Assembly (NCBI RefSeq): GCF_010119205.1
Contig: NZ_WRXM01000001.1
Span: forward strand, 496,001-560,000
Reading direction: 5' to 3'
Source of the DNA: Haloarcula limicola
GTDB taxonomy: Archaea > Halobacteriota > Halobacteria > Halobacteriales > Haloarculaceae
DNA length: 64,000 nucleotides
Below the pieces are notes generated by a model, which saw nothing but the letters and a program-made list of their open reading frames with translations, had not been told where the DNA came from and ran no database searches. Made by a program: the position numbers and the translations under genes. Shown here piece by piece: positions 41,200 to 54,383 of this stretch (the first letter of the stretch is position 1; each line of letters starts with the position of its first letter).

Positions 41200-42087
41200 T
41201 CAGAAGGGATCGTTCCGCCAGACGTCCAGTTTCCGCCCGATGATCCTCTCGACTGCCGATATCTCCGACTCGAAGGCGTCGGCGAGATATCGTTCCATTT
41301 CGGAGTCCATCTCGGGATATCCCGTCCGGAGATTCAGGTAGTAGATGAGTTCGCCGATACCGGTCCAGCGAAGGTGGTCGTGATAAATCTCGTTGAGACG
41401 GAGGTTCTTCGGCGTCTTCGTCTCGTTCTTCTGTCGGTCCGTATCACGCCACTGCTCCGGTGGCTCGACGTCGAGGAACTCACAGATCCGATCCAACGCG
41501 GCGGGCGGGTCACCGATCCACTCTTCGAATATCAGCAGGAGTATCTGGTCCTCGTCGAAGAGGTCGAACCACCGCTCTAAGTGAGTCGAATACTGGTTCT
41601 TGTAGTACCAACACATCGCGGTGTCTCGGTGGTCGCGGCTTCCCTCTATCTCGGCCTCGATCGCATCGCTGAACGGATACACCCGTTCCCGTCCCTGCCT
41701 AACGTTCTTCCAGTACTGAGAGTACGCCCGTGATATCGGGTTACGAAGCGTGAATATCAGCTTGATGTCGGGGTACTGCTCGCGGATACGAGCCGGAGGA
41801 TCGTCGCTGGGGTCGAAGCGGTAGTTGCGGTTCGAATCGAACGTGATGCCCCGATACCAGTACGGTGGCGACGCCTCGCCGACGGCCGTCTCGCCGTCGT
41901 GATTCGCGAACTGCTGCTCGTAATACTCAGTCCCTCTGGAGTAGTTCTCGTCTCGATCGAAGAACCGGAGTTCCTTCGCTGCCGGCATGAATATATCGTC
42001 GTGTTCGGAAAGATAGTCGTGAAGCGTCGTAGTCCCGGCACGCGAGACGCCGGGGATGAGAAATGTCGGGCGGCTGGCGTTCTGCAT
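41200..42087 (-). CDS. PAPS-dependent sulfotransferase
   Basis: A 295-residue sulfotransferase. The 5'-phosphosulfate-binding loop is FLIPGVSRAGTTTLHDYL at about residues 9-26, and the 3'-phosphate-binding motif is TLRNPISRAYSQYW at about 113-126. It adds sulfate from PAPS to a hydroxyl of a sugar, probably on a glycan. It is third in a run after another sulfotransferase and a CE4 deacetylase. The ATG at 42087 is preferred; a TTG at 42117 overlaps the previous stop but is an unlikely start. Low similarity to the second sulfotransferase suggests different positions are sulfated. Confidence 0.88.
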   Translation of the reverse strand: MQNASRPTFLIPGVSRAGTTTLHDYLSEHDDIFMPAAKELRFFDRDENYSRGTEYYEQQFANHDGETAVGEASPPYWYRGITFDSNRNYRFDPSDDPPARIREQYPDIKLIFTLRNPISRAYSQYWKNVRQGRERVYPFSDAIEAEIEGSRDHRDTAMCWYYKNQYSTHLERWFDLFDEDQILLLIFEEWIGDPPAALDRICEFLDVEPPEQWRDTDRQKNETKTPKNLRLNEIYHDHLRWTGIGELIYYLNLRTGYPEMDSEMERYLADAFESEISAVERIIGRKLDVWRNDPF

Positions 42088-42113
42088 AATGGCTGCATCC
42101 GACTCGACTGTTA

Positions 42114-43055
42114 TCAATACCGCGGGACTGATACTGTCGCCCCGTCGAGTCTGGGGATTCGAAATCGGGAACCCGAAACAGCGGCCGCTGATATGCGACG
42201 TGGGACGGTCGTCACGGCCGATCGGAACCCTGCACGTTCGACCGCCTCGGCGACCGCTTCGGAGCAGGCACCATAGGGATAGGAGAACTGTTCGATATCT
42301 CGGTCGAGGTACCGCTCTAGCTCGGTCTTCGAACGCAGAACGTCGGATGTGAGCGCGTCCTCGTCCAGCGATGTCAACGGGACGTGTTCGTACCCGTGCG
42401 CGCCGATCTCGATCAGCCGGTGGGTATCGAGTCGCCGTAGCTCGTTACCGCTCAACATCGCCGGAGCGGCGGTAGTCGTCCCGTCGATTCGCGCTATGAC
42501 TGCGTCTCGGACATCGGATCGTTCGAACTTCAGCGTCGCTCGAAGGCGCTCGTACGCGTCGTGTCGGCTCTCGTCGTCAGTGAGTGGCTGATCGACCGTT
42601 TCCCCGCCGATAGAGACGGCCACGCCGGTAGCAGACTGCAACTTCGCCGCGAGCCGATACTCGTACGGAGACATCCCGTCGAGATACTTTCCGGCGACGA
42701 AAACGGTGGCGGGTGCCTCGTACCGCTCCAGTAGCGGGAGCGCCTCGGTCAGATTGTCCCGGTAGCCGTCGTCGAACGTGATGACAGCGGTCGGTTCGGC
42801 CGGCGGTGACCCTGCAAGACACGATTCGAGGAGGTCCGAGAGCGACGAGACGTCGTATTCGGTGGTGATATACGCGAGCTGTCGCTCGAACGTCTCCGGC
42901 GTCACGGCGTACTGCCACGGCCCCCACTCCTTCTCGGCGCCGGGGTGTACGCTATGATACATGAACGCGACGACTGGGACGGATCTGCCAATTCGGAACC
43001 CGACCTCGTCTACGGCCTGTCGAGCGCGCCAATGGAGTCGCTGGAGCGGAATCAC
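42114..43055 (-). CDS. polysaccharide deacetylase (CE4) with PgaB-like features
   Basis: A 313-residue CE4 deacetylase. VVAFMYHSVHP at about residues 28-38, VITFDDGYRDN at about 91-101 (catalytic and metal Asp), the metal-binding HGYEH at about 220-224 and FSYPYG complete the canonical motif set. No clear signal peptide is seen. It lies between two sulfotransferases, so N-deacetylation followed by sulfation of the freed amine or nearby hydroxyl is a sensible order of events (inference), as in heparan-type N-deacetylase/N-sulfotransferase chemistry. Confidence 0.88.
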   Translation of the reverse strand: MIPLQRLHWRARQAVDEVGFRIGRSVPVVAFMYHSVHPGAEKEWGPWQYAVTPETFERQLAYITTEYDVSSLSDLLESCLAGSPPAEPTAVITFDDGYRDNLTEALPLLERYEAPATVFVAGKYLDGMSPYEYRLAAKLQSATGVAVSIGGETVDQPLTDDESRHDAYERLRATLKFERSDVRDAVIARIDGTTTAAPAMLSGNELRRLDTHRLIEIGAHGYEHVPLTSLDEDALTSDVLRSKTELERYLDRDIEQFSYPYGACSEAVAEAVERAGFRSAVTTVPRRISAAAVSGSRFRIPRLDGATVSVPRY

Positions 43056-43068
43056 GAGCTCTCCGTCC

Positions 43069-43956
43069 TCAGTAATCCACGTGTTCGAACCAGTGTTCGA
43101 ACGTCTTATCCACCCGTTCGTCTAAGTCCTTGGTCTTGGGTAGGTATATCTCTTCGAGACGCCGTCGCGTCTCGGGATTCATTCCCTTTTCGTATTCCGA
43201 TTCGGACTGGAACGGGTTACTGAGGTCGCCGCTCTGAACGAACTCGTGGAGCGGTCGAATCGGTCGCTTGATCGACTCGCCGAAGTTTCGATAAACGAAG
43301 TTCACCGCCCGATAGTAGGCCTTGTCGACGGCGTTGATACCGAAACTCCGCCTGGCGTCGTTGACCCGCTCGTCGAGTATCGACGGTCGGAACGTCGGGT
43401 CCGCACCGACGAAGTCGTACACTGATTCGATGAACGATTCGTCGTCCGCGACCAGGTCGTCGAAATACAGCAGCTTGAGTTGGTCCGAGTCGAAATGCTC
43501 CTCGAAACGCTCGATGTGGTCCACGTACATCCCGGGTCGAATCCAGTTCTCGTAGAGGTCGTAGTTCTCGAAGAGTTCCTCAAACTCGAAGGATATCTTC
43601 CCCTTCGACTTCTCGTGCCAGTAGTGAGAGAACGCCCTGTCCACCGGGTTCCGAAGCGAGAACAGTAGCTTCGCGTCCGGGTTCAGCTCCGCTATCCGCT
43701 CGGGAGTCACTTCTGATCGGATGTACGACGGCGTCTCCTCCCCGATGACCGCGTATTCATCGGGGTCCGCCGGGAAGTGCTGGCGGTACCACTCCGTACC
43801 GCGGTGGTACCCCATGTCGAAGTAATGGACGGAGTCCGTATCGGGGACGTAGACCTCGGGGTGTTCGGCCAGCCCCTCGTACATCCACGTCGTGGCGCAC
43901 TTCTGGGGGCCGACGATAACGAAATCGGGGACCCACTCGTCGGTATCAGACAGCAT
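43069..43956 (-). CDS. PAPS-dependent sulfotransferase
   Basis: A 295-residue sulfotransferase. The 5'-phosphosulfate loop FVIVGPQKCATTWMYEGL is at about residues 12-29, and the 3'-phosphate motif SLRNPVDRAFSHYW at about 100-113. The helical C terminus is typical of heparan/NodH-type enzymes. It is first in the three-gene run, whose gaps are 13 and 26 nt. A CTTTTGTAG box about 33 nt upstream supports the ATG at 43956 and a leaderless transcript. Confidence 0.9.
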   Translation of the reverse strand: MLSDTDEWVPDFVIVGPQKCATTWMYEGLAEHPEVYVPDTDSVHYFDMGYHRGTEWYRQHFPADPDEYAVIGEETPSYIRSEVTPERIAELNPDAKLLFSLRNPVDRAFSHYWHEKSKGKISFEFEELFENYDLYENWIRPGMYVDHIERFEEHFDSDQLKLLYFDDLVADDESFIESVYDFVGADPTFRPSILDERVNDARRSFGINAVDKAYYRAVNFVYRNFGESIKRPIRPLHEFVQSGDLSNPFQSESEYEKGMNPETRRRLEEIYLPKTKDLDERVDKTFEHWFEHVDY

Positions 43957-44107
43957 AGTCCTAGAGGGAGCAGGTCGCTACAAAAGTGTACAGATACACG
44001 GCGAACGTCTCGCCCGTTGGAACACCCACGACCGGGGGACGCGGTTCCGAACGTCGAAGCGAGCAGAAACGTTGATAGGAACACTATCCGCTAGTACGAT
44101 CGGAGGG

Positions 44108-44890
44108 ATGGCGGAGCCATCAGATACCACGAACGGAACCGAGGCAAGTACCAGTGAGAGTCCCGTCTCGGTCGTCGTCCCGTATAGTCCCGCACACACG
44201 CCGGAAAATATCTTCGACGACGCCGTCGCAACGGCGCAATCTCAGTCGGTTCCGACGGAACTGATCGTCGTAGAGGACACCGAACAACGAGGACCGTCAT
44301 GGGCGCGTAATCGAGGGCTCGAACGCGCATCGACCCGTTACGTCGCGTTTCTCGATGCCGACGACTACTGGCACGACGGGAAGTTGGCCCGTCAGCTCGC
44401 CGAGATGGACGAGTCCGAAACGGGGATCTGTGTCGAAGCCGACGACGTGCAGCCGTCGCAGTTTCTCCGGGAGCTGTATCTCGGCAACATCGCCTCGCTC
44501 ACATCGTCCGTACTCGTCGATACCGAGCGGACCGACATCCGATTCGAGGAAGCACTCGAACGCCGGGAAGACCACTTATTCGTCCTCGAATCGGCCGCAC
44601 AGAGCGGTATCTGTTTCGTTCCCGACCTCTTTACCGTCGGCGGTCACGACGAGAGCCTCTCACAGGGGACGGCGACTCGGTACCGGCTCGAACAGGATTT
44701 CCGCTTCTCTCGGTACGTCAAAGAGCGCGTACCCGAGGTACGCGATGCGCTCCGGTTTTACGAACAGCCTCGGTGCGACCACGCGTTCGACAACACGCCG
44801 GGAGACCTCTATCGGCTCGCGCTCCTCTGGCCGTCTCTACGGGCGGTCGTCGGAATGTGGATCTCGCTACTGTGCCAGCGGCTCAGTTAG
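44108..44890 (+). CDS. family 2 glycosyltransferase
   Basis: A 260-residue GT2-A enzyme. VSVVVPYSPAHTPENIFDDAV at about residues 23-43, GPSWARNRGLERASTRYVAFLDADDYW (DxD) at about 63-90, and a later HDESLSQGTATRY stretch match soluble capsule-type transferases. It is shorter than usual and has one hydrophobic stretch at the very C terminus. It is divergent from the sulfotransferase run, overlaps the flippase stop by four bases, and probably adds one sugar to the lipid-linked glycan. The start is set at MAEPSDTTNG. Confidence 0.82.
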   Translation: MAEPSDTTNGTEASTSESPVSVVVPYSPAHTPENIFDDAVATAQSQSVPTELIVVEDTEQRGPSWARNRGLERASTRYVAFLDADDYWHDGKLARQLAEMDESETGICVEADDVQPSQFLRELYLGNIASLTSSVLVDTERTDIRFEEALERREDHLFVLESAAQSGICFVPDLFTVGGHDESLSQGTATRYRLEQDFRFSRYVKERVPEVRDALRFYEQPRCDHAFDNTPGDLYRLALLWPSLRAVVGMWISLLCQRLS

Positions 44891-46308
44891 GCTGGAATGA
44901 CCGAATCGAGCAGCGAGATCGCCTTGTCCCTGACTCTCGTAGAGAGACTGACGAGTAGCCCCAGATAGACGCCTGCGGCCAGAATCACGATTGCTACCGT
45001 CCAGTAGTGACCGGCTGGTATCGTATCGCGAGCGGCTAGCAAAATACCCCCCATCCCGAGCGCCGAGACAGCCTGTGAAGCGAATTCCGTCCAAGGCAGG
45101 CTCGGTCGGCCGATGAGCCGCGCGATGACGCCGAAGCTCACGACGAGCAGACCGGTCGCCGAGAGCGCCGTAGCGGCCGCCGCCCACTCCCAGCCGTACG
45201 TCGAGACGAGAGCGACGTTCAACGCGACGTTCACGGCGATGAACGCGCCACTAACCCGAAACGCTACTTCGGGGCGATCGATCGCGTTGATAGCCGAGAT
45301 GAACTGCTCACCGAACGCCGCGACGAGTTGGGCGTAGACGAGAACGACCAAGACGGTCGCACCGGCTCGGAACGCGCCGTCGTATATCGCCAGAATACGC
45401 GGTCCGACGAGCGCGGCGCCGACCAGTCCCGGGAGACAAAAAACGCCGGTGAACACGAGTCCCTCGTTGAGTAAGTGATGTATCTGGTCGTAGCTATCGT
45501 CCGTACTGAGGTCGCTGAACTCGGGAAACAGCGTATGCTGGACCGACTTACTGACGAGAATGAGCGTCGCCGACAGCGTCCAGGCGACTTCGTAGATACC
45601 GACGAGCGACGACGTCACGAACAGGCCGAGTACCGCGGTGTCGGTCCAGCTAAACGCTCGGCTCTTGAGTCGTGCGAGCCAAGAGAAACGGGAATACTCC
45701 ACGAGGCTGTGAAGGTGTTCTCGCTCCGGGAGACGCGGCCGCGACTGAGAGAGATACAGCCCCAACACGCCGGCCGTCAGCAACGCCACGGCGTGTCCGA
45801 TGAGCAGCCCGGAGATGCTGTAGCCGAGGAGTATGAAACCGACCTGTAGCACCGTCCGCACGATCCGCTCTACGCTCTGTATTGACCCCGAGTGGACGAC
45901 CTGTTTCTCGCCGCTCAGTACGGCCTGCAGTAGTCTGAAGACTCCGGTACCGACCAAGAGGAATACGAATTCGGTCGTGACCGGTGCACCGACGTACTGT
46001 TCGAAGTACGACTTTGACAGCGACACGGTCACAACCAACACGAGCAGTATCCCGCCAATGATGACGATTCCGCCGCCGAAATACGCGTCCCGTTCCCCCG
46101 CTTCGCTCATTCGCTTGATTATGGCGGTGTGGACGGCGATTATCGGTACAGCGACGAGGAACAGAACTGCCGTCGCCTTCGCGTAATAACCGAGCGGCTC
46201 GGGACCGAGCAGTCTGGCGATCGCGAACGTGGCGACGAACCCGGACAGCGAAACCACGACCTGCGAGAGAAAGTGAAATGCGGCAGTCCGACCGAGTTTC
46301 AACGCCAT
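44887..46308 (-). CDS. polysaccharide/oligosaccharide flippase (Wzx/AglR-like)
   Basis: A 473-residue membrane protein with about 13-14 hydrophobic helices, of the Wzx/MATE-related polysaccharide biosynthesis family (FLSQVVVSLSGFVATFAIARLLGPEPLGYYAKA at the N terminus). AglR of Haloferax is the closest named functional analogue; it is linked to translocation of the lipid-linked sugar. Here it is the last gene of the aglG operon and would move the finished, possibly sulfated glycan across the membrane for AglB. Confidence 0.87.
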   Translation of the reverse strand: MALKLGRTAAFHFLSQVVVSLSGFVATFAIARLLGPEPLGYYAKATAVLFLVAVPIIAVHTAIIKRMSEAGERDAYFGGGIVIIGGILLVLVVTVSLSKSYFEQYVGAPVTTEFVFLLVGTGVFRLLQAVLSGEKQVVHSGSIQSVERIVRTVLQVGFILLGYSISGLLIGHAVALLTAGVLGLYLSQSRPRLPEREHLHSLVEYSRFSWLARLKSRAFSWTDTAVLGLFVTSSLVGIYEVAWTLSATLILVSKSVQHTLFPEFSDLSTDDSYDQIHHLLNEGLVFTGVFCLPGLVGAALVGPRILAIYDGAFRAGATVLVVLVYAQLVAAFGEQFISAINAIDRPEVAFRVSGAFIAVNVALNVALVSTYGWEWAAAATALSATGLLVVSFGVIARLIGRPSLPWTEFASQAVSALGMGGILLAARDTIPAGHYWTVAIVILAAGVYLGLLVSLSTRVRDKAISLLDSVIPA

Positions 46309-46356
46309 TACTGGCGGAAGCGCGCCGAGGCTTGTGTGTGTTCCTATCGAAGTTCG

Positions 46357-47205
46357 TCACTCACTGCGTTCAGCGCTGGCCGAGCGGAGCGCCTCTACCG
46401 TCTCCGCTGACACGCCGACCGTCCCGATTCTGAACTTTCCGGATTCCCGCCCGTGACAGTCTGATCCGCCGGTTTGCAGCAGGTCGTGATCAGCGGTCAA
46501 TCGGTCGGCGTCCTCGATACCGAACTCGACGTCCGCATCGTACGGATACCACGTTTCGATGGCGTCGACCCCGTTCCGAACCGCAGCTTGGACTATCTCC
46601 GGGATCCGGTCGGATCGGATGCGACCGGGGTGGGCGAGCGACGCGACACCGCCGGCCGCGTGGATGGCGTCGACGACCTCGCCGCAGGGAATCCGCTCCA
46701 TCGGGACGTAACATCGGCCATCCTCTGCGAGATACTCGGAGAACGCCTCACCGATGCCGTCTACGTATTCCTCTTCCAATAAAATCTCGGCCAGATGTGG
46801 CCGTCCCATCCCGCCACGGACATCGCTTTGTAACGCTTCGTAGCTCAGCTCGAGGTCGGTCACATCATTGAGTTCGCTGACGAGTCGTCTATTTCGCTCG
46901 CGCCGATACGTTCGAGCGCGGTCGAGAACTGAGTCGAGCGCCGCGTCTGTCGGATCGATGAAATACCCCAGCAGCTCGACCTTCGTCTCGAAAATGTCGG
47001 CCCTGATTTCGACGCCAGTTACCACCTCTATCCCGCTCATTCGTTGCGAGCCTGCGCCGAGTTCGTCGAGAACACGATCGTGGTCCGTTATCGCGATCGC
47101 CTCTAAGTCCCGCTCTCGCGCCTGTTCGATTCGATCGTCGAGCGTGTCGGTTCCGTCGGATCCGACTGTATGCATGTGGAGATCCGCCGCGATCTCGGAG
47201 GTCAT
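46357..47205 (-). CDS. PHP-domain phosphoesterase, candidate PAP phosphatase
   Basis: A 282-residue PHP-domain hydrolase with a full ligand set visible: DLHMH (H10, H12), SDG (D17), TDHD (D41, H42), GVEI (E67), GRPH (H137), AHPGR (H192) and GGSDCHG (D249, H251). The layout matches the bacterial subgroup that includes Chromobacterium Cv1693, a 3',5'-nucleotide bisphosphate phosphatase that turns PAP into AMP. It is 43 nt after cysC and next to a flippase, in an operon that makes PAPS. PAP is the product of sulfotransferases, so a PAP phosphatase is expected here. The activity itself is inference. Confidence 0.85.
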   Translation of the reverse strand: MTSEIAADLHMHTVGSDGTDTLDDRIEQARERDLEAIAITDHDRVLDELGAGSQRMSGIEVVTGVEIRADIFETKVELLGYFIDPTDAALDSVLDRARTYRRERNRRLVSELNDVTDLELSYEALQSDVRGGMGRPHLAEILLEEEYVDGIGEAFSEYLAEDGRCYVPMERIPCGEVVDAIHAAGGVASLAHPGRIRSDRIPEIVQAAVRNGVDAIETWYPYDADVEFGIEDADRLTADHDLLQTGGSDCHGRESGKFRIGTVGVSAETVEALRSASAERSE

Positions 47206-47248
47206 CGCGGCAGCATAGCGGCGTGACGGGTGAGAACGTTCCGGTCGG

Positions 47249-47872
47249 TTACGAGTCCGAGTCGAGTTTTCCCTTCTCGCGTAGCTGTTCGATGACGGAC
47301 AGCTCCTCGTTTCGGGAGATGCTGAAGTCGTATCCTTCGAGCGGCTGGTCGATGATGTGGTTCGAACCCAGATAATTCATGACTTGGCCGACGCAGTCGT
47401 CGAGCGAGTCGTGTTCGGTGTCGACGATGAGATCTGGATCGAGCGGTTCCTGGAAGGGGTGGTTGACGCCGGTGAACTTCTCGATTTTGCCTTCCCGCGC
47501 CTGTTTGTACAGCTCTTTCGGGTCACGCCGTTCGCACTCCTCTATCGAGCACTTCGTGTAGATGAGGACGAAATCGCCTTCAGATTCGATTATCTCACGC
47601 GCCTGCTGCTGGGACTCTCGGAACGGCGTTATCATACCGACGATGACGGGAATGTCGTTCCGATTAAGCAGTTTACAGATGTATGCCGTCCGTTTGTTGT
47701 TCAATCGCCGGTCTTCCCGAGAGAAGCCGAGTCCGGGATGGAGATTTTGTCGGAGATCGTCTCCGTCCAAGTTCTCTATTGGCAATCCGTGTTCGATCAA
47801 TTCGTCCTCTACGCGGCTCGCCAGTGTCGACTTCCCGGACGCCGGACGACCCATGAACCAGAGTGTGAACAT
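47249..47872 (-). CDS. cysC: adenylylsulfate (APS) kinase
   Basis: A 207-residue APS kinase that phosphorylates APS with ATP to make PAPS. The P-loop GRPASGKSTLA is at about residues 8-18, LDGDDLR (family LDGDN) at about 35-41, and FTGVNHPFQEPLDPDLIVDT is the C-terminal substrate loop. It starts 2 nt after the sat gene, so translation is coupled. In this cluster PAPS feeds the two sulfotransferases rather than cysteine synthesis; no PAPS or sulfite reductase gene is near. Confidence 0.93.
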   Translation of the reverse strand: MFTLWFMGRPASGKSTLASRVEDELIEHGLPIENLDGDDLRQNLHPGLGFSREDRRLNNKRTAYICKLLNRNDIPVIVGMITPFRESQQQAREIIESEGDFVLIYTKCSIEECERRDPKELYKQAREGKIEKFTGVNHPFQEPLDPDLIVDTEHDSLDDCVGQVMNYLGSNHIIDQPLEGYDFSISRNEELSVIEQLREKGKLDSDS

Positions 47873-47874
47873 CG

Positions 47875-49026
47875 TTAGTTACTCACAAATACGTCGTCCA
47901 TTTGCAATATATCTTCGGCCACTTCGGGTCGCATCAGTTTCTCGCTGGGCAGTTCTCCGTCGCCGAGCATCGCTCGTAGCTTCGTCCCGCTCGGTTCGAC
48001 GTGCTCCGAAGCGTCGTGGGGACAGATCTTCTCGGAGACGACTCCGTCACAGCGTCGGCAGAAGAACGCGTAGTGGTAATACAGTGGCGTGATACCGACC
48101 GTCCCGACGCGATCGAAGATTTCCTGTGATGCGAAGTCACTATAGTACTCACCGACGCCGGCGTGGTCGCGGCCGATTATGAAGTGGGTACAGCCGTAGT
48201 TCTTCCGGACGATACTGTCGAACACCGCTTCACGCGGTCCGGCGTACCACATCCGCGAGGAGAACATCGCGAGGACGATGGCGTTCTCCGGATAATACCC
48301 CTCGACGAGCGTCTCGTACGCGGAGAGTATCGCTTCGTTAGCGTAGTCGCCGGCTTTCTTCTCTCCGATTTTGGGCTGGATGAACAGCCCGTCAGTCTGT
48401 TCGAGCGCCGACTTCTGGAGATACTCGTGAGCGCGGTGCGGGACGTTCCGTGTTTGAAAGCCGACGACAGTGTCCCAGCCCTTTTGATTGAATAGAACGC
48501 GCGATTCGATCGGCTTCAGAAAGTGGTCCGCGTTCATGCCGTCCGCGTCGTCGAACGCCTTTATATCGCCCCCGACGAAGAAGGGATCCTTCTCCAGAAA
48601 GGTCTCGACGCCGGGATGGTCCGGGTCGTCGGTTCCGAATATCTTTCTGGCCGCTTCCTCACCGTTGTAGCGATAGATCTCGTCTACGTCCAGTAGGCCG
48701 AGTCGTTCCCCATTCGGCCCCGTAATACCGACGCGGTCGCCGGGGCTCATCTCGTTTGCTTTCTGCGCGGTGACGTCGAGTACGATCGGGAGCGTCCACG
48801 GTTCCCCCCCTTCGAGCGTCATATCGTTCACGACCTTCAGGAAGTCGTTCTGCGATAGGAAACCGGTAAGCGGACTGTAGGCTCCACTGGAGATATTCAG
48901 AAAGTCGTAGTAGAGGTTCTGGTCGAGTTGAATCTCCGGATAGCTGTCGAACTCATCTCTTAGTTCCTCGCTACGTTCTGGGGACAAAAAACGGTCGACG
49001 AGCGTATTTCCGTGGGGAGGAATCAT
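47875..49026 (-). CDS. sat: sulfate adenylyltransferase (ATP sulfurylase)
   Basis: A 383-residue ATP sulfurylase making APS from sulfate and ATP. The active-site motif FQTRNVPHRAHEYLQ is at about residues 190-204, IIGRDHAGVGEYY further on, and CRRCDGVVSEKICPHD provides Cys/His residues found in archaeal-type enzymes. The ATG at 49026 (MIPPHGNTLV) is preferred; a longer frame upstream reads into the glycosyltransferase gene. It lies 47 nt after the GT4 stop and 2 nt before cysC. Confidence 0.93.
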   Translation of the reverse strand: MIPPHGNTLVDRFLSPERSEELRDEFDSYPEIQLDQNLYYDFLNISSGAYSPLTGFLSQNDFLKVVNDMTLEGGEPWTLPIVLDVTAQKANEMSPGDRVGITGPNGERLGLLDVDEIYRYNGEEAARKIFGTDDPDHPGVETFLEKDPFFVGGDIKAFDDADGMNADHFLKPIESRVLFNQKGWDTVVGFQTRNVPHRAHEYLQKSALEQTDGLFIQPKIGEKKAGDYANEAILSAYETLVEGYYPENAIVLAMFSSRMWYAGPREAVFDSIVRKNYGCTHFIIGRDHAGVGEYYSDFASQEIFDRVGTVGITPLYYHYAFFCRRCDGVVSEKICPHDASEHVEPSGTKLRAMLGDGELPSEKLMRPEVAEDILQMDDVFVSN

Positions 49027-49073: not shown

Positions 49074-50255
49074 CTACGGACGACGCCACCCCTCGGCTTC
49101 GGACGAGCGGGGGGGCGCATACTGACGCAGAATCGCCCGATAGCGCTCGACGGCCGCCTCGAAACTGTACTCGCGCTCTATCAGCGCACGCCCGTTCTCA
49201 CTTATTCGCTCGCGGTCGTCGCGGTCGAGGATCGATTCGATGCCCTCTCTGAGCGCCGAGGGCTCTCTGGAGTCGATGAGAAAACCCGTCTCGCCCTCCC
49301 GCACCACGTCTGGAACGCCGGAGACCGGCGAGGCGTACACCGGGGTGCCACAGGCCAGCGCCTCCAGTATCGTCGTCGGCAATCCCTCCGTCGGTTGGGA
49401 GGGCAAGACGAGCAGGGAGAGGTCGTTCAACTGGGCGGGCACGTCGTCGTGGTCGACCCAGCCCGCGAGTTCGACGCGCCCGGCGTCGATCTCGGCGGCG
49501 AGTTCGGCCTCCAGCCACTCGCGTAAGTCGCCGTCGCCGATGAAGCGGAAGGTCACGTCGTCGGGAAGGGTCCGAGCGACCGTCGCCAGTTCGCGGATAC
49601 CCTTCTCCTCGTCAAGGCGGCCGAGGAAGCCGACGACGCGCTCTCGCTCCGCGTAGGGTTTCTCGACGGCGAACTCGTCGGTCCGAACGTACCGCGCGCC
49701 GGTCGGGAAGACGTCCGGTGCTTCGGGGTGGAGGTCGAGTTGCCGAGCCATGCTCGGCGTGTAGGTGACGACGCCGTCGGCCGCGGCGAACCCCGCCCGT
49801 TCGAGGGCGCGCACCGCGCCGGCGAGTCCGCGAGCGAGCGGCGCTGGTAGCCGCTGTTCCCAGTTGAGACGCAACGTGAGCGGAACGTCCCCGCGCGGTT
49901 CGACGAGGACGGTCTTGCCGAGTGCGCGGGCTACGAGAATCGGGAGCAGATACGACGTCGCGCCGTAGAAAAGGACGACCTCCTCGTCGCGGTCGGCCAG
50001 CACGCGACACATCCGTAACTGGTTGAGGAGGAAGCGGGTCGCGGCAACGAGAACGGTATCACCCGACCCCTTCCGGGTGAGTTCGATCAGTTCGCGGTTC
50101 TCGCGAATCTCCGAGTCTCCGGGGAGGTCGGCGGTCACGAGGGCGACACTCGTGATAGCCGAGAGCACGTCCAGCAGGCTTCGTGTCGCGTTCTCACCGG
50201 CGGCGGCGAGTGGATGGGTGACGACGCAGACGTCGGGGAGGTCGGGTTCCGTCAT
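49074..50255 (-). CDS. family 4 glycosyltransferase
   Basis: A 393-residue GT-B enzyme of the GT4 group. The C-terminal nucleotide-sugar-binding region is clear: VVGFLGRLDEEKGIREL, then LVLPSQPTEGLPTTILEALACGTPVYAS (the EAxAxGxPV motif, E at about residue 296), and FLID. It has no membrane helices. It lies second in the aglG operon (gap 4 nt after aglG, 47 nt before sat) and probably adds a sugar of the N-glycan on the cytoplasmic face. Confidence 0.9.
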   Translation of the reverse strand: MTEPDLPDVCVVTHPLAAAGENATRSLLDVLSAITSVALVTADLPGDSEIRENRELIELTRKGSGDTVLVAATRFLLNQLRMCRVLADRDEEVVLFYGATSYLLPILVARALGKTVLVEPRGDVPLTLRLNWEQRLPAPLARGLAGAVRALERAGFAAADGVVTYTPSMARQLDLHPEAPDVFPTGARYVRTDEFAVEKPYAERERVVGFLGRLDEEKGIRELATVARTLPDDVTFRFIGDGDLREWLEAELAAEIDAGRVELAGWVDHDDVPAQLNDLSLLVLPSQPTEGLPTTILEALACGTPVYASPVSGVPDVVREGETGFLIDSREPSALREGIESILDRDDRERISENGRALIEREYSFEAAVERYRAILRQYAPPRSSEAEGWRRP

Positions 50256-50259
50256 CGAG

Positions 50260-51207
50260 TCAACCCCACACGTACGCTCCGTAGAGGTAGCCAGCGCCGA
50301 CCGCGCCGGTCAGCACGAAGAGGAATATCAGTTGCAGGACGGCGGCCACCGACGGCGAGCGGACGAGGCCACGGAGACGGTTCGGCACGAATTCGAACAG
50401 CAAGTCGCCCAAGAACGCCGACTCGTCGCCCGTCGATTCGGGGACGAACACTTCCATCCCGCGTTTCGAATACCCCTGCCAGAACGCCCGGTCGACGAGC
50501 CAGCCGGGGTCGGTGCGGTAGTCGAAGACCTTGTGCGCGACGAGGGCATCGGGAACGTAGTAGACACCGGTACCGTACTCGCGCTGGAGTCGAGCGCACA
50601 GCTCCGTCTCGCCGCCCTGCAGGTTCTTCGCGCCCTGTCGGCCGCCGATGTCGTCCTCGAACCCGCCCAGTTCGAGGAAGGCGTCGCGTCGAAAGGAGAT
50701 GTTCGAGCCGAAGGTGTTGCGAACCTCGCCCGCTTTTTCGGGGTCGCCGTCCGGGCCGAACCCGCGGTGCGTGACGCCGACGAGCCAGTAGAACTCGTCG
50801 GGGAGAAAGGCGGGCTTGCCGGCGACCCACGCCGGGACCATCCGTCCGCCGACGGCCGGGACGTCGCCGTCGGCGTCGTCGCGTTCGTAGCCGCCGACGA
50901 GTTTCTCGACCCAGTCTTCGGCGGCGACGGCGTCGTCGTCGAGAAAGGCCACCACCTCTCCTGTCGCCAACTCGGCTCCGTTGTTCCGGCTCTCCAGTAA
51001 GCCGACGTTCTCGTCGTTACAGTGGACGAGGACGCTCTCTCGGCCGCCGAAGTCGGTTTCGAAGCGATCGGCGACGGCCTCGCTCCCGTCGGAGACGAGG
51101 ACGAGTTCGACGTCGTCGTAGGTCTGGGAGAGGACACTCTCGGCCGCCGCCCGACAGTCGTCGTATCGCTCCATCGTATGCGTACACAGGACGACCGAGA
51201 CGCGCAT
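50260..51207 (-). CDS. aglG: AglG-type glycosyltransferase
   Basis: A 315-residue GT2 enzyme closely resembling AglG of Haloferax volcanii, which adds the second sugar, a hexuronic acid, to the N-glycan. VSVVLCTHTMERYDDCRAAAESVLSQTYDD opens the domain, VAFLDDDAVA gives the DxD, and FGSNISFRRDAFLELGGFEDDIGGRQGAKNLQGGETELC is the acceptor loop. One C-terminal helix (about 285-310) anchors it. It heads a six-gene minus-strand run. The ATG at 51207 is set by the family start MRVSVVLCT. The uronic acid specificity is inferred from resemblance. Confidence 0.82.
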   Translation of the reverse strand: MRVSVVLCTHTMERYDDCRAAAESVLSQTYDDVELVLVSDGSEAVADRFETDFGGRESVLVHCNDENVGLLESRNNGAELATGEVVAFLDDDAVAAEDWVEKLVGGYERDDADGDVPAVGGRMVPAWVAGKPAFLPDEFYWLVGVTHRGFGPDGDPEKAGEVRNTFGSNISFRRDAFLELGGFEDDIGGRQGAKNLQGGETELCARLQREYGTGVYYVPDALVAHKVFDYRTDPGWLVDRAFWQGYSKRGMEVFVPESTGDESAFLGDLLFEFVPNRLRGLVRSPSVAAVLQLIFLFVLTGAVGAGYLYGAYVWG

Positions 51208-51302
51208 GCACGCAGGTGCACGACGGCCGCTGTTAGGCGTTTCCATCCCGCGACCGGTCGGAGGTCAAAAGGCTTATGCGCGCGTTGGAAGTGTTTCCGG
51301 CA

Positions 51303-54300
51303 ATGAGTCAATCGCGGGGCTATCTCGACGAGAACCCCGAGCTCGAGTCCGCCCTGGACTGGGTACAGGAGTGGTATCACATCCCAGCCCTCGTGGTGCT
51401 GATCGGGTTCATGCTGTGGAATCGGGTTCGCAACTACTCGCAGTTCATCGTCGACGGCGAAGTGCTGTTCAGCGCACAGGACCCCTGGTATCACTACCGG
51501 ACGACGATGTTCGTGGTCAGGAACTGGCCGGCGACGATGCCGTTCGACCCGTGGACCTACTTCCCCCACGGCACCCGTTCGGGCCAGTTCGGAACGCTAT
51601 TGGACCAGACCGTCGCCACGGTCGCGCTCGTCGTCGGCCTGGGATCGCCGAGCGAGCAGACCGTCGGCATCGTCGCCATCCTCGCTCCGGCGGTCATCGG
51701 CACGCTCGCGGCCATCCCGGTGTACTTCATCGGTCGTCGCCTCGGCGGCCGCCTCGGCGGCGTCACCGCCGTCGTCGTCCTCGCGTTCTCGGCGGGCGTG
51801 TTCCTCCAGCGGAGCCTCGTCGGGACGTACGACCACCAGGTCGCAGAGGGATTCCTCCAGACGCTCGCGGTGCTGGGCGTGATGGTCGCGCTCGGCGTCG
51901 CAGAGCGCGAGAAACCCATCTACGAGCAGTTCCTCGAACGCGACGTCGACGCCCTGAGAGACACCGTCGGCTACTCGCTGCTGGCCGGGTTCGGCATCAC
52001 GCTGTACCTCTGGACGTGGCCCCCGGGCGTCCTCCTCCTGGGCATCCTCGGAGCCTTCTTCCTCCTGTGGCTCACGATGGAGTTCGTCCGCGGGAAGAGC
52101 CCGGAACACGTCGCCATCGCCGGCGCGATAATGATGGGGGCGGTGACGGTGTTCGAACTGGCCGTCATCAAATCGCTCAGAATCACCGCGACGGACCACT
52201 CGCTGTTGCAGCCGCTGATGGCCGCCGCGATCGGCGTCGGCTGCCTGTTCATGGCGTGGCTGGCCCGCTACATGGAGGCAGAGGACTACGACCGCAACCT
52301 CTACCCGGTGACGGTCGGCGGCATCCTCGTCGTCATCACGGTCCTGATGGCGGTGCTGACGCCGGACCTCCTGAGCTACATCGTCGACCAGGTCCTCCGC
52401 GTCGTCGGGTTCACGTCGAGTCCGTCGGCGACCCAGACCTCCGTCGGCGAGGCGACGCCGCTTCGCAACCCCCTTCGCCTCTATCAGTACCACGGGCTCG
52501 CGCTGTTCGTCGCCATCGCCGGGGCGATCTACATCACCGCGAAGCAGTTCCTCGACCGCGACGCGCCCGCAGAGCAGTTCCTGATGGTCGTCTGGGGCGC
52601 GTTCATCCTCGCAGCTAACTTCACGCAGATCCGCTTCGGCGTCTATCTGGTTTTCCCCGTCGCCGCTCTGACTGGATTCGCCATCGCGCGAATCGTCAGT
52701 TGGGTCGACCTCTCGGCCGACGACGGCGTCGAGGTGTACGAGGTGTTGACCGTCATCGTCCTCGTGTTCACCGTCATCGGACCGCTGCTGTTCGTCGCCC
52801 CGACGGCCACCGCGGTCGGCGCGACGGCCGCGCCGGGACAGGAAGCGCAGGGCTGGGACGACGGCCTCGACTGGATGGCGAACCACACGCCGGAGGAAGG
52901 TGCCTACGGCACCGGCGGCGACCGGTCGCTCGAGTACTACGGCACCTACCAGATCCGAGACGACTACGACTACGAGAACGGCGAGTACGGCGTCATGTCG
53001 TGGTGGGACTACGGGCACATGATCACCGTCGAGGGCGAACGCATCCCGCACGCCAACCCCTTCCAGCAGGGTTCGACGACCGCGGCGAACTTCCTGCTCG
53101 CGCCCAACGAGTCACAGGCCAACGCCGTCCTCGAGAACATCAACGAGGACGACGCGAAGGTGCAGTACGTCGCGGCCGACTGGAAGATGGCCAGCGTCAA
53201 CAGCCAGTACGGCGGGAAGTTCTTCGCGCCGCCGCGCTTCTACAACGTCTCGGACGTCGCGGCGAACGACTACTACCGGTCGATCACGAGCAGGAACACC
53301 GGTCAGCAGTTCAACTACCGGACGCAGTCGTACTACGACACCACCGTCGTCCGGCTCTACCGGTACCACGGCAGCGCCGTCGAGCCGCAGCCGATCGTCC
53401 TCGACTGGGAAATCGCAACCCAGAACGGCCGGAGCGTCGCGGCGACGCCCGAAAACAGCCGAACCATCAAGACCTTCCGGTCGATGGAACAGGCGCGGGC
53501 GTACGTGGAGAACGACTCCACATCGCAGGTCGGCGGCTTCGGGGGGCTCCCCAGCGAGCGCGTCCCGGCGATGGAACACTACCGCTACGTCGGGTCGAGC
53601 GAGCGCAGCGCTTACGCGTCCGATAGCTTCAACTACGCCACGCTCATCGAGGCGCAGGGCGCCGGGTTCGCCCCGCGACCCGCCGGCAATCAGAGCTGTT
53701 TCGCCAACGAGACGTCGATGCCGGTCGGCGGCCAGAACTACTGCATGGCCGACGGCATCGCCAACGCGATGAACGAGAACAACCCGGCGTGGACCAAGAT
53801 ATTCGAGCGCGTCCCCGGCGCGACAGTCGAGGGGACCGGTCCCGCCGACTCGGTCGTCACGGCCTCGGTGCAGATGCGCAACCACGAGACCAACGAGACG
53901 TTCGTCTACCGCCAGCAGGCCCAGACGGACGCGAACGGGAACTTCGAGATGACGCTCCCCTACTCGACGACCGGCTACGACGAGTGGGGCACCGAGGAAG
54001 GCTACACGAACGTCAGCGTCCGCGCCGAGGGACCGTATCAGTTCAGCACGCCGGCGAGCTTCCAGAACAACAGCATCACTCGGTCGACGGGCACGGCCGA
54101 CGTGAGCGAGGGGCAGGTGCTCGGCGAGACCCAGTCGCCGGTGACGGTCGAACTGGAGGAGACGAGCCGCGACATCAACGTCGGCAACGACTCGTCGGAT
54201 AACGGGACGTCCGGCGAGTCGCTGAACCAGACGGCGAACGGCTCCGACAGCGGGGCGACGAACACCACGTCCGGTGGCGAGCAGTCCGGGACTGCGACGC

Positions 54301-54383
54301 CGGCACCCGGGACTGACGCCGGCACGGCGACGGCCGAACCCGCGACCGACGCGGGGACGCCGGCCGCGACCGAGACGGCGTAA
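51303..54383 (+). CDS. aglB: oligosaccharyltransferase AglB (N-glycosylation)
   Basis: A 1026-residue OST catalytic subunit that moves the lipid-linked glycan to Asn of S-layer and other proteins. About 13 membrane helices fill residues 25-500. The first metal motif is SAQDPWYHYR (Asp at about residue 60), and the catalytic WWDYGH motif is at about 567-572, followed by a large extracytoplasmic domain. A Ser/Thr/Ala-rich tail (about 960-1026) is unusual in length and probably glycosylated. The start at 51303 (MSQSRGYLDE) is preferred over 51276 because a CTTATG box lies about 33 nt before it. It is divergent from the aglG operon. Confidence 0.95.
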   Translation: MSQSRGYLDENPELESALDWVQEWYHIPALVVLIGFMLWNRVRNYSQFIVDGEVLFSAQDPWYHYRTTMFVVRNWPATMPFDPWTYFPHGTRSGQFGTLLDQTVATVALVVGLGSPSEQTVGIVAILAPAVIGTLAAIPVYFIGRRLGGRLGGVTAVVVLAFSAGVFLQRSLVGTYDHQVAEGFLQTLAVLGVMVALGVAEREKPIYEQFLERDVDALRDTVGYSLLAGFGITLYLWTWPPGVLLLGILGAFFLLWLTMEFVRGKSPEHVAIAGAIMMGAVTVFELAVIKSLRITATDHSLLQPLMAAAIGVGCLFMAWLARYMEAEDYDRNLYPVTVGGILVVITVLMAVLTPDLLSYIVDQVLRVVGFTSSPSATQTSVGEATPLRNPLRLYQYHGLALFVAIAGAIYITAKQFLDRDAPAEQFLMVVWGAFILAANFTQIRFGVYLVFPVAALTGFAIARIVSWVDLSADDGVEVYEVLTVIVLVFTVIGPLLFVAPTATAVGATAAPGQEAQGWDDGLDWMANHTPEEGAYGTGGDRSLEYYGTYQIRDDYDYENGEYGVMSWWDYGHMITVEGERIPHANPFQQGSTTAANFLLAPNESQANAVLENINEDDAKVQYVAADWKMASVNSQYGGKFFAPPRFYNVSDVAANDYYRSITSRNTGQQFNYRTQSYYDTTVVRLYRYHGSAVEPQPIVLDWEIATQNGRSVAATPENSRTIKTFRSMEQARAYVENDSTSQVGGFGGLPSERVPAMEHYRYVGSSERSAYASDSFNYATLIEAQGAGFAPRPAGNQSCFANETSMPVGGQNYCMADGIANAMNENNPAWTKIFERVPGATVEGTGPADSVVTASVQMRNHETNETFVYRQQAQTDANGNFEMTLPYSTTGYDEWGTEEGYTNVSVRAEGPYQFSTPASFQNNSITRSTGTADVSEGQVLGETQSPVTVELEETSRDINVGNDSSDNGTSGESLNQTANGSDSGATNTTSGGEQSGTATPAPGTDAGTATAEPATDAGTPAATETA

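Follow-up and report, generated by a model that had tools for sequence, protein, structure and literature searches.

A PHP-domain phosphoesterase beside sat and cysC as a candidate PAP phosphatase for glycan sulfation in Haloarcula limicola

3'-Phosphoadenosine 5'-phosphate (PAP or pAp) inhibits sulfotransferases and exoribonucleases, and cells that sulfate with 3'-phosphoadenosine 5'-phosphosulfate (PAPS) must therefore remove it. In Methanothermococcus, a DHH-family PAP phosphatase is encoded beside sat and cysC, its activity and its high specificity for PAP have been measured, and the build-up of PAP inhibits the pathway (PMC10322725). A DHH PAP phosphatase is likewise encoded beside sat and cysC in the Thermococcales (PMC8268124), and in the literature surveyed the removal of PAP in archaea is tied by gene context and biochemistry to DHH enzymes only (PMC8268124, PMC10322725). 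A bacterial PHP-family 3',5'-nucleotide bisphosphate phosphatase, Cv1693, also hydrolyses pAp (PMC8268124). Sulfation of the AglB-linked N-glycan of the haloarchaeon Halobacterium salinarum is carried out by Agl30 and Agl31, in a paper that mentions neither phosphoadenosine nor adenylylsulfate kinase (PMC11980604). Here we describe a sulfation block in a 64,000-nt stretch of Haloarcula limicola (NZ_WRXM01000001.1; this whole stretch is called the window, and its positions are used as coordinates), which encodes Sat, CysC, a PHP-domain phosphoesterase and two sulfotransferases, ST1 and ST2. From gene context and sequence comparison, the PHP protein is likely to act as a PHP-family 3'-phosphatase on PAP, and possibly on PAPS, in the service of PAPS-dependent glycan sulfation. 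The activity class is a known one and the combination of family and context is new; the literature searched, which did not include most subscription papers, gave no previous description of a PHP gene accompanying sat-cysC in haloarchaea.

Association of the PHP protein with sat and cysC

Haloarchaeal-type sat was found in 9 of 391 Halobacteria genomes, all nine of which were checked directly and have a strong adenylylsulfate (APS) kinase; two further genomes (G286 and G382; G and L numbers are our working labels) carry a divergent Sat. Among 292 genomes, a close CysC (57-69%) is present in seven genomes, and the same seven have Sat, with the divergent Sat of G286 in addition. The PHP protein of the window belongs to a subfamily, here called PHP1, whose members score 277 bits or more and which is present in seven of the 391 genomes. 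Below these members the scores drop to 192-197 bits in three genomes of one genus and then to at most 158 bits, the level of a near-universal COG0613 paralog that sits apart from PHP1 on a long, fully supported branch of the tree. The original prediction had suggested a survey of co-occurrence in haloarchaea, and the outcome is a strong association: PHP1 and sat-cysC are found together in six of the seven PHP1 genomes (Fisher p=1.2e-10 over genomes and 4.1e-7 over genera). Since the six genomes belong to six genera, the association is not one clade counted repeatedly. A 195-bit relative in G014, in which a Tyr replaces the phosphate-binding Arg and beside which no sulfation neighbours were detected, was left out of PHP1. 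We also considered G286 and G382, which have sat but neither a real APS kinase nor PHP1, as a negative control for the expectation that genomes without PAP have no PHP, and dropped this control because the CysH of G286 is PAPS-reductase-like (ECGLH tail, no CC pairs) and the genomes are incomplete.

Neighbourhoods were read for the matches in the 292 genomes and for a separate contig scan, and 13 sat-cysC loci were counted. PHP1 is linked to sat-cysC at nine loci, namely the window, L041, L042, L043/L112 (Halobellus), L044, L103 and L107 (Salinibaculum), L110 and L111 (Halorussus). The gene follows cysC in the same direction in the window and convergently at L041, L103 and L107, is divergent from sat at L043 (Halobellus inordinatus), L044 and L110, and lies about 4-6 kb from sat-cysC at L042 and L111 (Halorussus salinisoli); in G371, which is possibly the same organism as L110, sat and PHP are divergent and about 130 bp apart. 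The association thus survives changes of order and orientation. Repeated re-pairing of sat-cysC and PHP was considered as well and set aside: the trees place the window differently, but their internal support is too low.

After sat and cysC themselves, the commonest neighbour is PHP (9/13 loci), followed by the flippase and the ST1/ST2 family (five loci each) and by AglB and GT4 (four each). Sulfotransferases occur at 12 of the 13 loci, with a weak match in one case; homologs of ST2 occur in four other sat-cysC loci, and the polysaccharide deacetylase is also found in L042 and L111. At L103 neither a sulfotransferase nor a glycan gene was detected over 10 kb, and at L041 four genes, in the order sulfotransferase, sat, cysC and PHP, stand amid apparently unrelated genes, with no glycosyltransferase or flippase detected. 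These two contexts indicate that PHP tracks PAPS synthesis and not one particular glycan. We rejected the possibility that PHP is a mere passenger of the whole glycan cluster, as it ranks ahead of the glycan genes and remains beside sat-cysC at both of these loci. A gene for a PF01663 type I phosphodiesterase/nucleotide pyrophosphatase was seen in three sat-cysC islands (L039 10208-11182, L043 6594-7571 and L107 1721-2692), and the Thermococcales sat-cysC cluster also has an analogous gene (PMC8268124).

Family, fold and active site of the PHP protein

The protein belongs to the PHP domain family (PF02811, 37.7 bits, gathering score 26.4); Pfam gives PHP alone, with neither PF00459 (CysQ/HAL2/BPNT) nor DHH PF01368. 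Its top NCBIfam model is NF041577 (3',5'-nucleoside bisphosphate phosphatase) with 122.4 bits, below the cut-off of 400, and it scores 115.6 bits with NF047791 (RNase RNM), below the cut-off of 375. The other PHP1 members reach 139-155 bits with NF041577, likewise below the cut-off, and this model is ahead of RNase RNM by about 5-15 bits in every PHP1 member scored. The folds nearest to an AlphaFold2 model of the protein (mean pLDDT 93.8) are those of BAD_1165, V. cholerae RNase AM and Cv1693, with TM scores of 0.77-0.81.

Trinuclear metal ligands and substrate pocket were taken from the E. coli RNase AM structure, which includes a comparison with Cv1693-AMP-Pi (PMC9410882). By residue mapping, eight of the nine metal ligands (H10, H12, D17, H42, E66, H192, D249 and H251) are identical to those of RNase AM and Cv1693. 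The full metal-ligand set claimed at the outset is thus eight of nine plus one His-to-Glu change, and its details are corrected in two respects: the Glu is E66 and not E67, and H137, which had been listed as a ligand, is instead the residue that follows R135 in a GRPH motif. The ninth site is occupied by Glu77, where RNase AM (H83) and Cv1693 (H75) have His; this Glu is invariant in 10/10 PHP1 members, and the universal haloarchaeal paralog has an Asp at the same position in 29/29 cases. A Glu at this position could still bind metal. Equally invariant in the 10 PHP1 members are the eight ligands, the 5'-phosphate Arg triad R101/R104/R135, the adenine-stacking F155 and the phosphate-binding R195; the residues with which Cv1693 and RNase AM bind a 5'-phosphorylated nucleoside 3'-phosphate are thus conserved. 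Fold and pocket point to a 5'-phosphorylated nucleoside 3'-phosphate or a 5'-phosphorylated RNA as substrate, without choosing PAP; because the universal paralog has identical pocket residues, the pocket alone cannot choose PAP over the RNA.

The sulfation block and its genomic setting

As in the original prediction, sat and cysC lie 2 nt apart and would make PAPS, and the PHP gene follows 43 nt after cysC in the same run. Sat and CysC pass the cut-offs of their TIGR families, and the minus-strand run continues, after 48 nt, with the flippase (Table 1). The GT4 gene, the AglG-type gene and aglB lie upstream of this run. Both sulfotransferases are outside the run, and the plus-strand GT2 gene separates it from ST2, the deacetylase and ST1. 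ST1 and ST2 both score above the gathering scores of PF00685 and PF13469, and the Pfam scan gave no match to a sulfatase model in either of them. Motifs resembling the 5'-PSB (SRAGTT; PQKCATT) and the 3'-PSB (RNPxxRAxSxYW) can be read from their sequences. The polysaccharide deacetylase could be a preparer of amines for N-sulfation.

Table 1. Features of the sulfation block in the window and of PHP genes near a second sulfotransferase locus
Feature	Coordinates	Strand	Evidence
sat, ATP sulfurylase, 383 aa	47875..49026	-	TIGR00339 355.5 bits (cut-off 322.95); NF003166 461.9 (cut-off 387)
cysC, adenylylsulfate kinase, 207 aa	47249..47872	-	TIGR00455 174 bits (cut-off 138.7); PF01583
PHP-domain (COG0613-type) phosphoesterase, 282 aa, PHP1 subfamily, proposed PAP 3'-phosphatase	46357..47205	-	PF02811
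Wzx/oligosaccharide flippase, 473 aa	44887..46308	-	PF13440/PF01943
GT2 glycosyltransferase	about 44108..44890	+	PF00535; start inferred from L042 homolog
PAPS-type sulfotransferase 2 (ST2), 295 aa	43069..43956	-	PF00685 74 bits; PF13469 61 bits
Polysaccharide deacetylase, 313 aa, GTG start	42114..43055	-	PF01522 81.7 bits
PAPS-type sulfotransferase 1 (ST1), 295 aa, ATG start (TTG at 42117 possible)	41200..42087	-	PF13469 64 bits; PF00685 59 bits
GT4 glycosyltransferase of N-glycosylation cluster (context)	49074..50255	-	PF00534 113.6 bits
AglG-type glucuronosyltransferase (context)	50260..51246	-	NF041394 481.6 bits (cut-off 440)
AglB oligosaccharyltransferase (context)	51276..54383	+	TIGR04154 819 bits (cut-off 450)
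Separate-clade PHP proteins near the fusion locus (locus coordinates)	L047 12137-12949; L048 5690-6502; L049 5510-6337; L052 11974-12786; L057 6769-7698		

The GC content drops to 56-62% between 41 and 49 kb, from 66-67% in both flanks, and this dip of about 5-10 points coincides exactly with the sulfation genes, which sit as a low-GC block within the aglB N-glycosylation cluster. Neither the window-type sat nor the PHP1 subfamily was found in 20 sampled genomes of the same genus (G016 to G341). The GC dip and this absence fit an acquisition by transfer into the aglB cluster, and the sulfation block probably belongs to an island that is horizontally mobile in haloarchaea.

The host genome encodes four PHP proteins, including a second one of the COG0613 type, seven DHH proteins and one protein of the inositol-phosphatase family. 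The DHH protein L005 is a Mn pyrophosphatase that scores above the cut-off, the inositol-phosphatase-family protein L012 reaches 75 of the 229 bits of the CysQ model TIGR01331, and the stand-alone DHH protein L008 matches pyrophosphatases and cyclic-dinucleotide phosphodiesterases in the PDB rather than archaeal pApases. No PAP-phosphatase model is passed by any host protein scanned, and there is no evident dedicated PAP phosphatase among them; other host enzymes might hydrolyse some PAP in the background. No PAPS reductase above cut-off was found near the locus, as had been noted before, or anywhere in the host genome, where the two PF01507 matches are a CysD-like protein (26.7 bits with a CysH cut-off of 154) and another protein with 23.5 bits on PF01507. 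A set of the assimilation type, with sulfite reductase, sat, CysH and apparent siroheme-type genes, was seen in G286 (L099 5878-11042), a genome without a real APS kinase.

A second APS-kinase-like gene of the host lies away from the window locus, at C2:798389. It is part of a recurrent locus (G000 C2:798389-798841, L046 7803-12018; also L045 and L047-L057) with a sulfotransferase of roughly 407 aa and a 285-aa fusion of an APS kinase with a cytidylyltransferase-like domain, accompanied by a YqcI/YcgG or weakly arginine-deiminase-like protein and at some loci by argininosuccinate synthase. No sat was seen near these loci, which look like a biosynthetic cluster. At 5 of about 14 loci (Table 1), proteins of a separate COG0613 PHP clade are encoded about 2-4 kb from these genes, in at least one genome in addition to the core paralog, and represent a second association of PHP with sulfotransferases.

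Proposed function, rival explanations and comparison with known systems

In the pathway that we propose, Sat would form APS, from which CysC would make PAPS, and ST1 and ST2 would move sulfate from PAPS onto an acidic surface glycan, with release of PAP. The acceptor is probably the AglB-linked N-glycan of the cluster that hosts the island. From the context we infer that the PHP protein cleaves the 3'-phosphate of PAP (pAp to AMP + Pi), and perhaps of PAPS, and would so relieve product inhibition, while PPi would be removed by the host Mn-dependent pyrophosphatase (L005). The candidacy of PHP as a PAP phosphatase, put forward from the window alone, is supported by the distribution of PHP1 (6/7), the nine linked loci, the top rank among neighbours and the conserved pNp-type pocket.

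Several observations weigh against this reading. The score of 122 bits with NF041577 is far from the cut-off of 400 and nearly equal to that of RNase RNM, and neither the NCBIfam scores nor the fold comparison separates a bisphosphatase from an RNase; one metal ligand is changed from His to Glu, and the universal paralog keeps the same pocket residues. Furthermore, Natronomonas aquatica (L039/L102) and all five Halovenus loci (L104-L106, L108 and L109) have sat-cysC and a sulfotransferase without PHP1, at the level of the whole genome G220 and G180 contain the paralog alone, and the absence of PHP1 amounts to two changes on the Sat-CysC tree. Conversely, G199 (L097 3286-10767) carries PHP1 but has neither sat nor a real cysC. 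Its PHP1 gene has as neighbours a GT2, a flippase and two sulfatase-family genes, which may be Agl30/31-like sulfotransferases. Thus, sat-cysC sets do not strictly require PHP, and PHP does not occur strictly within them; the earlier statement that PAP removal would otherwise be missing goes too far, given the lineages without PHP1 and the second COG0613 PHP, the inositol-phosphatase-family protein and the several DHH proteins of the host.

The near-equal scores with the two NCBIfam models, the rank of V. cholerae RNase AM among the top folds and the fact that every pocket residue is common to RNase AM would all suit an RNase AM-like 5'-3' exoribonuclease or oligoribonuclease that came to be in the island by chance. 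Yet a housekeeping RNase is not expected to track the rare sat-cysC pair in six of seven genomes, the other COG0613 paralog is already present in almost all haloarchaea, and NF041577 leads in all PHP1 members scored, which makes this explanation improbable. We give slightly less credence still to a role of PHP on a glycan precursor or a sugar or dolichyl phosphate, in which case it would travel with glycan clusters and not with PAPS chemistry. The recurrence of flippase and glycosyltransferases near PHP and the sat-less arrangement in G199 speak for such a role, but PHP accompanies sat-cysC at L103 and L041, where neither kind of gene was detected, ranks above every glycan gene as a neighbour and keeps a nucleotide-binding pocket.

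A use of the sat-cysC pair in sulfate assimilation could be imagined, since both enzymes also function in assimilation, but is very improbable given that no PAPS reductase in the genome scores above cut-off, that sulfotransferases are present at nearly all of the loci, and that an assimilatory Sat lineage (G286: sat, CysH and sulfite reductase) lacks a real cysC and PHP1. A different kind of alternative is that PHP cleaves PAP and is redundant, most of the work being done by the second COG0613 PHP, the inositol-phosphatase-family protein or a DHH protein. It agrees with our proposal on activity and differs on importance, and the confidences placed in the two overlap. All three classes of alternative phosphatase are present in the host, and two lineages run sat-cysC without PHP1; however, no scanned host protein, L012 and L008 included, passes a PAP-phosphatase model, and PHP has been kept repeatedly, which suggests that it confers a benefit, so we consider redundancy rather unlikely.

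If PHP is indeed a PAP phosphatase, it would represent a non-homologous replacement of the archaeal DHH enzyme, and sat-cysC-PHP would be a compact, portable module, almost bare at L103 and joined by one sulfotransferase at L041. A broader proposal, to which we would give somewhat under an even chance, is that COG0613 PHPs are a haloarchaeal class of PAP phosphatases distinct from CysQ and DHH, with the trinuclear-site His replaced by Glu in the sat-linked proteins and by Asp in the universal paralog, and that they were recruited together with PAPS synthesis to mobile islands of glycan sulfation and, in a separate clade, beside the locus with a sulfotransferase and an APS-kinase/nucleotidyltransferase fusion.

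Among the known systems, Cv1693 (Chromobacterium violaceum, PDB 2YB1) resembles the window PHP in fold (TM 0.78), in 8/9 ligands and in the Arg triad, stacking Phe and phosphate Arg. It differs in sequence (24% identity) and in having His75 at the position of Glu77; the window PHP, in turn, scores under the NF041577 cut-off, is archaeal and is associated with sat-cysC. RNase AM/RNM (YciV; PDB 7UG9, 9ETK) shares the fold group and the pocket residues, whereas the identity is 19-29%, its H83 corresponds to Glu77, and the genomic context of the window PHP is one of sulfation and not that of a stand-alone RNase. The DHH PAP phosphatases (MtPAPP and the Pyrococcus yayanosii pApase) act at the same step of the pathway and occupy the same slot beside ATP sulfurylase and APS kinase (PMC10322725, PMC8268124), but their fold and family are unrelated, and their clusters feed sulfate assimilation where that of the window would feed glycan sulfation. 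Finally, Agl30 and Agl31 belong to the alkaline-phosphatase superfamily, whereas ST1 and ST2 are Sulfotransfer_1/3 proteins with PAPS synthesis alongside, and the locus would point to a PAPS-based route of glycan sulfation in haloarchaea alongside that of Agl30/31.

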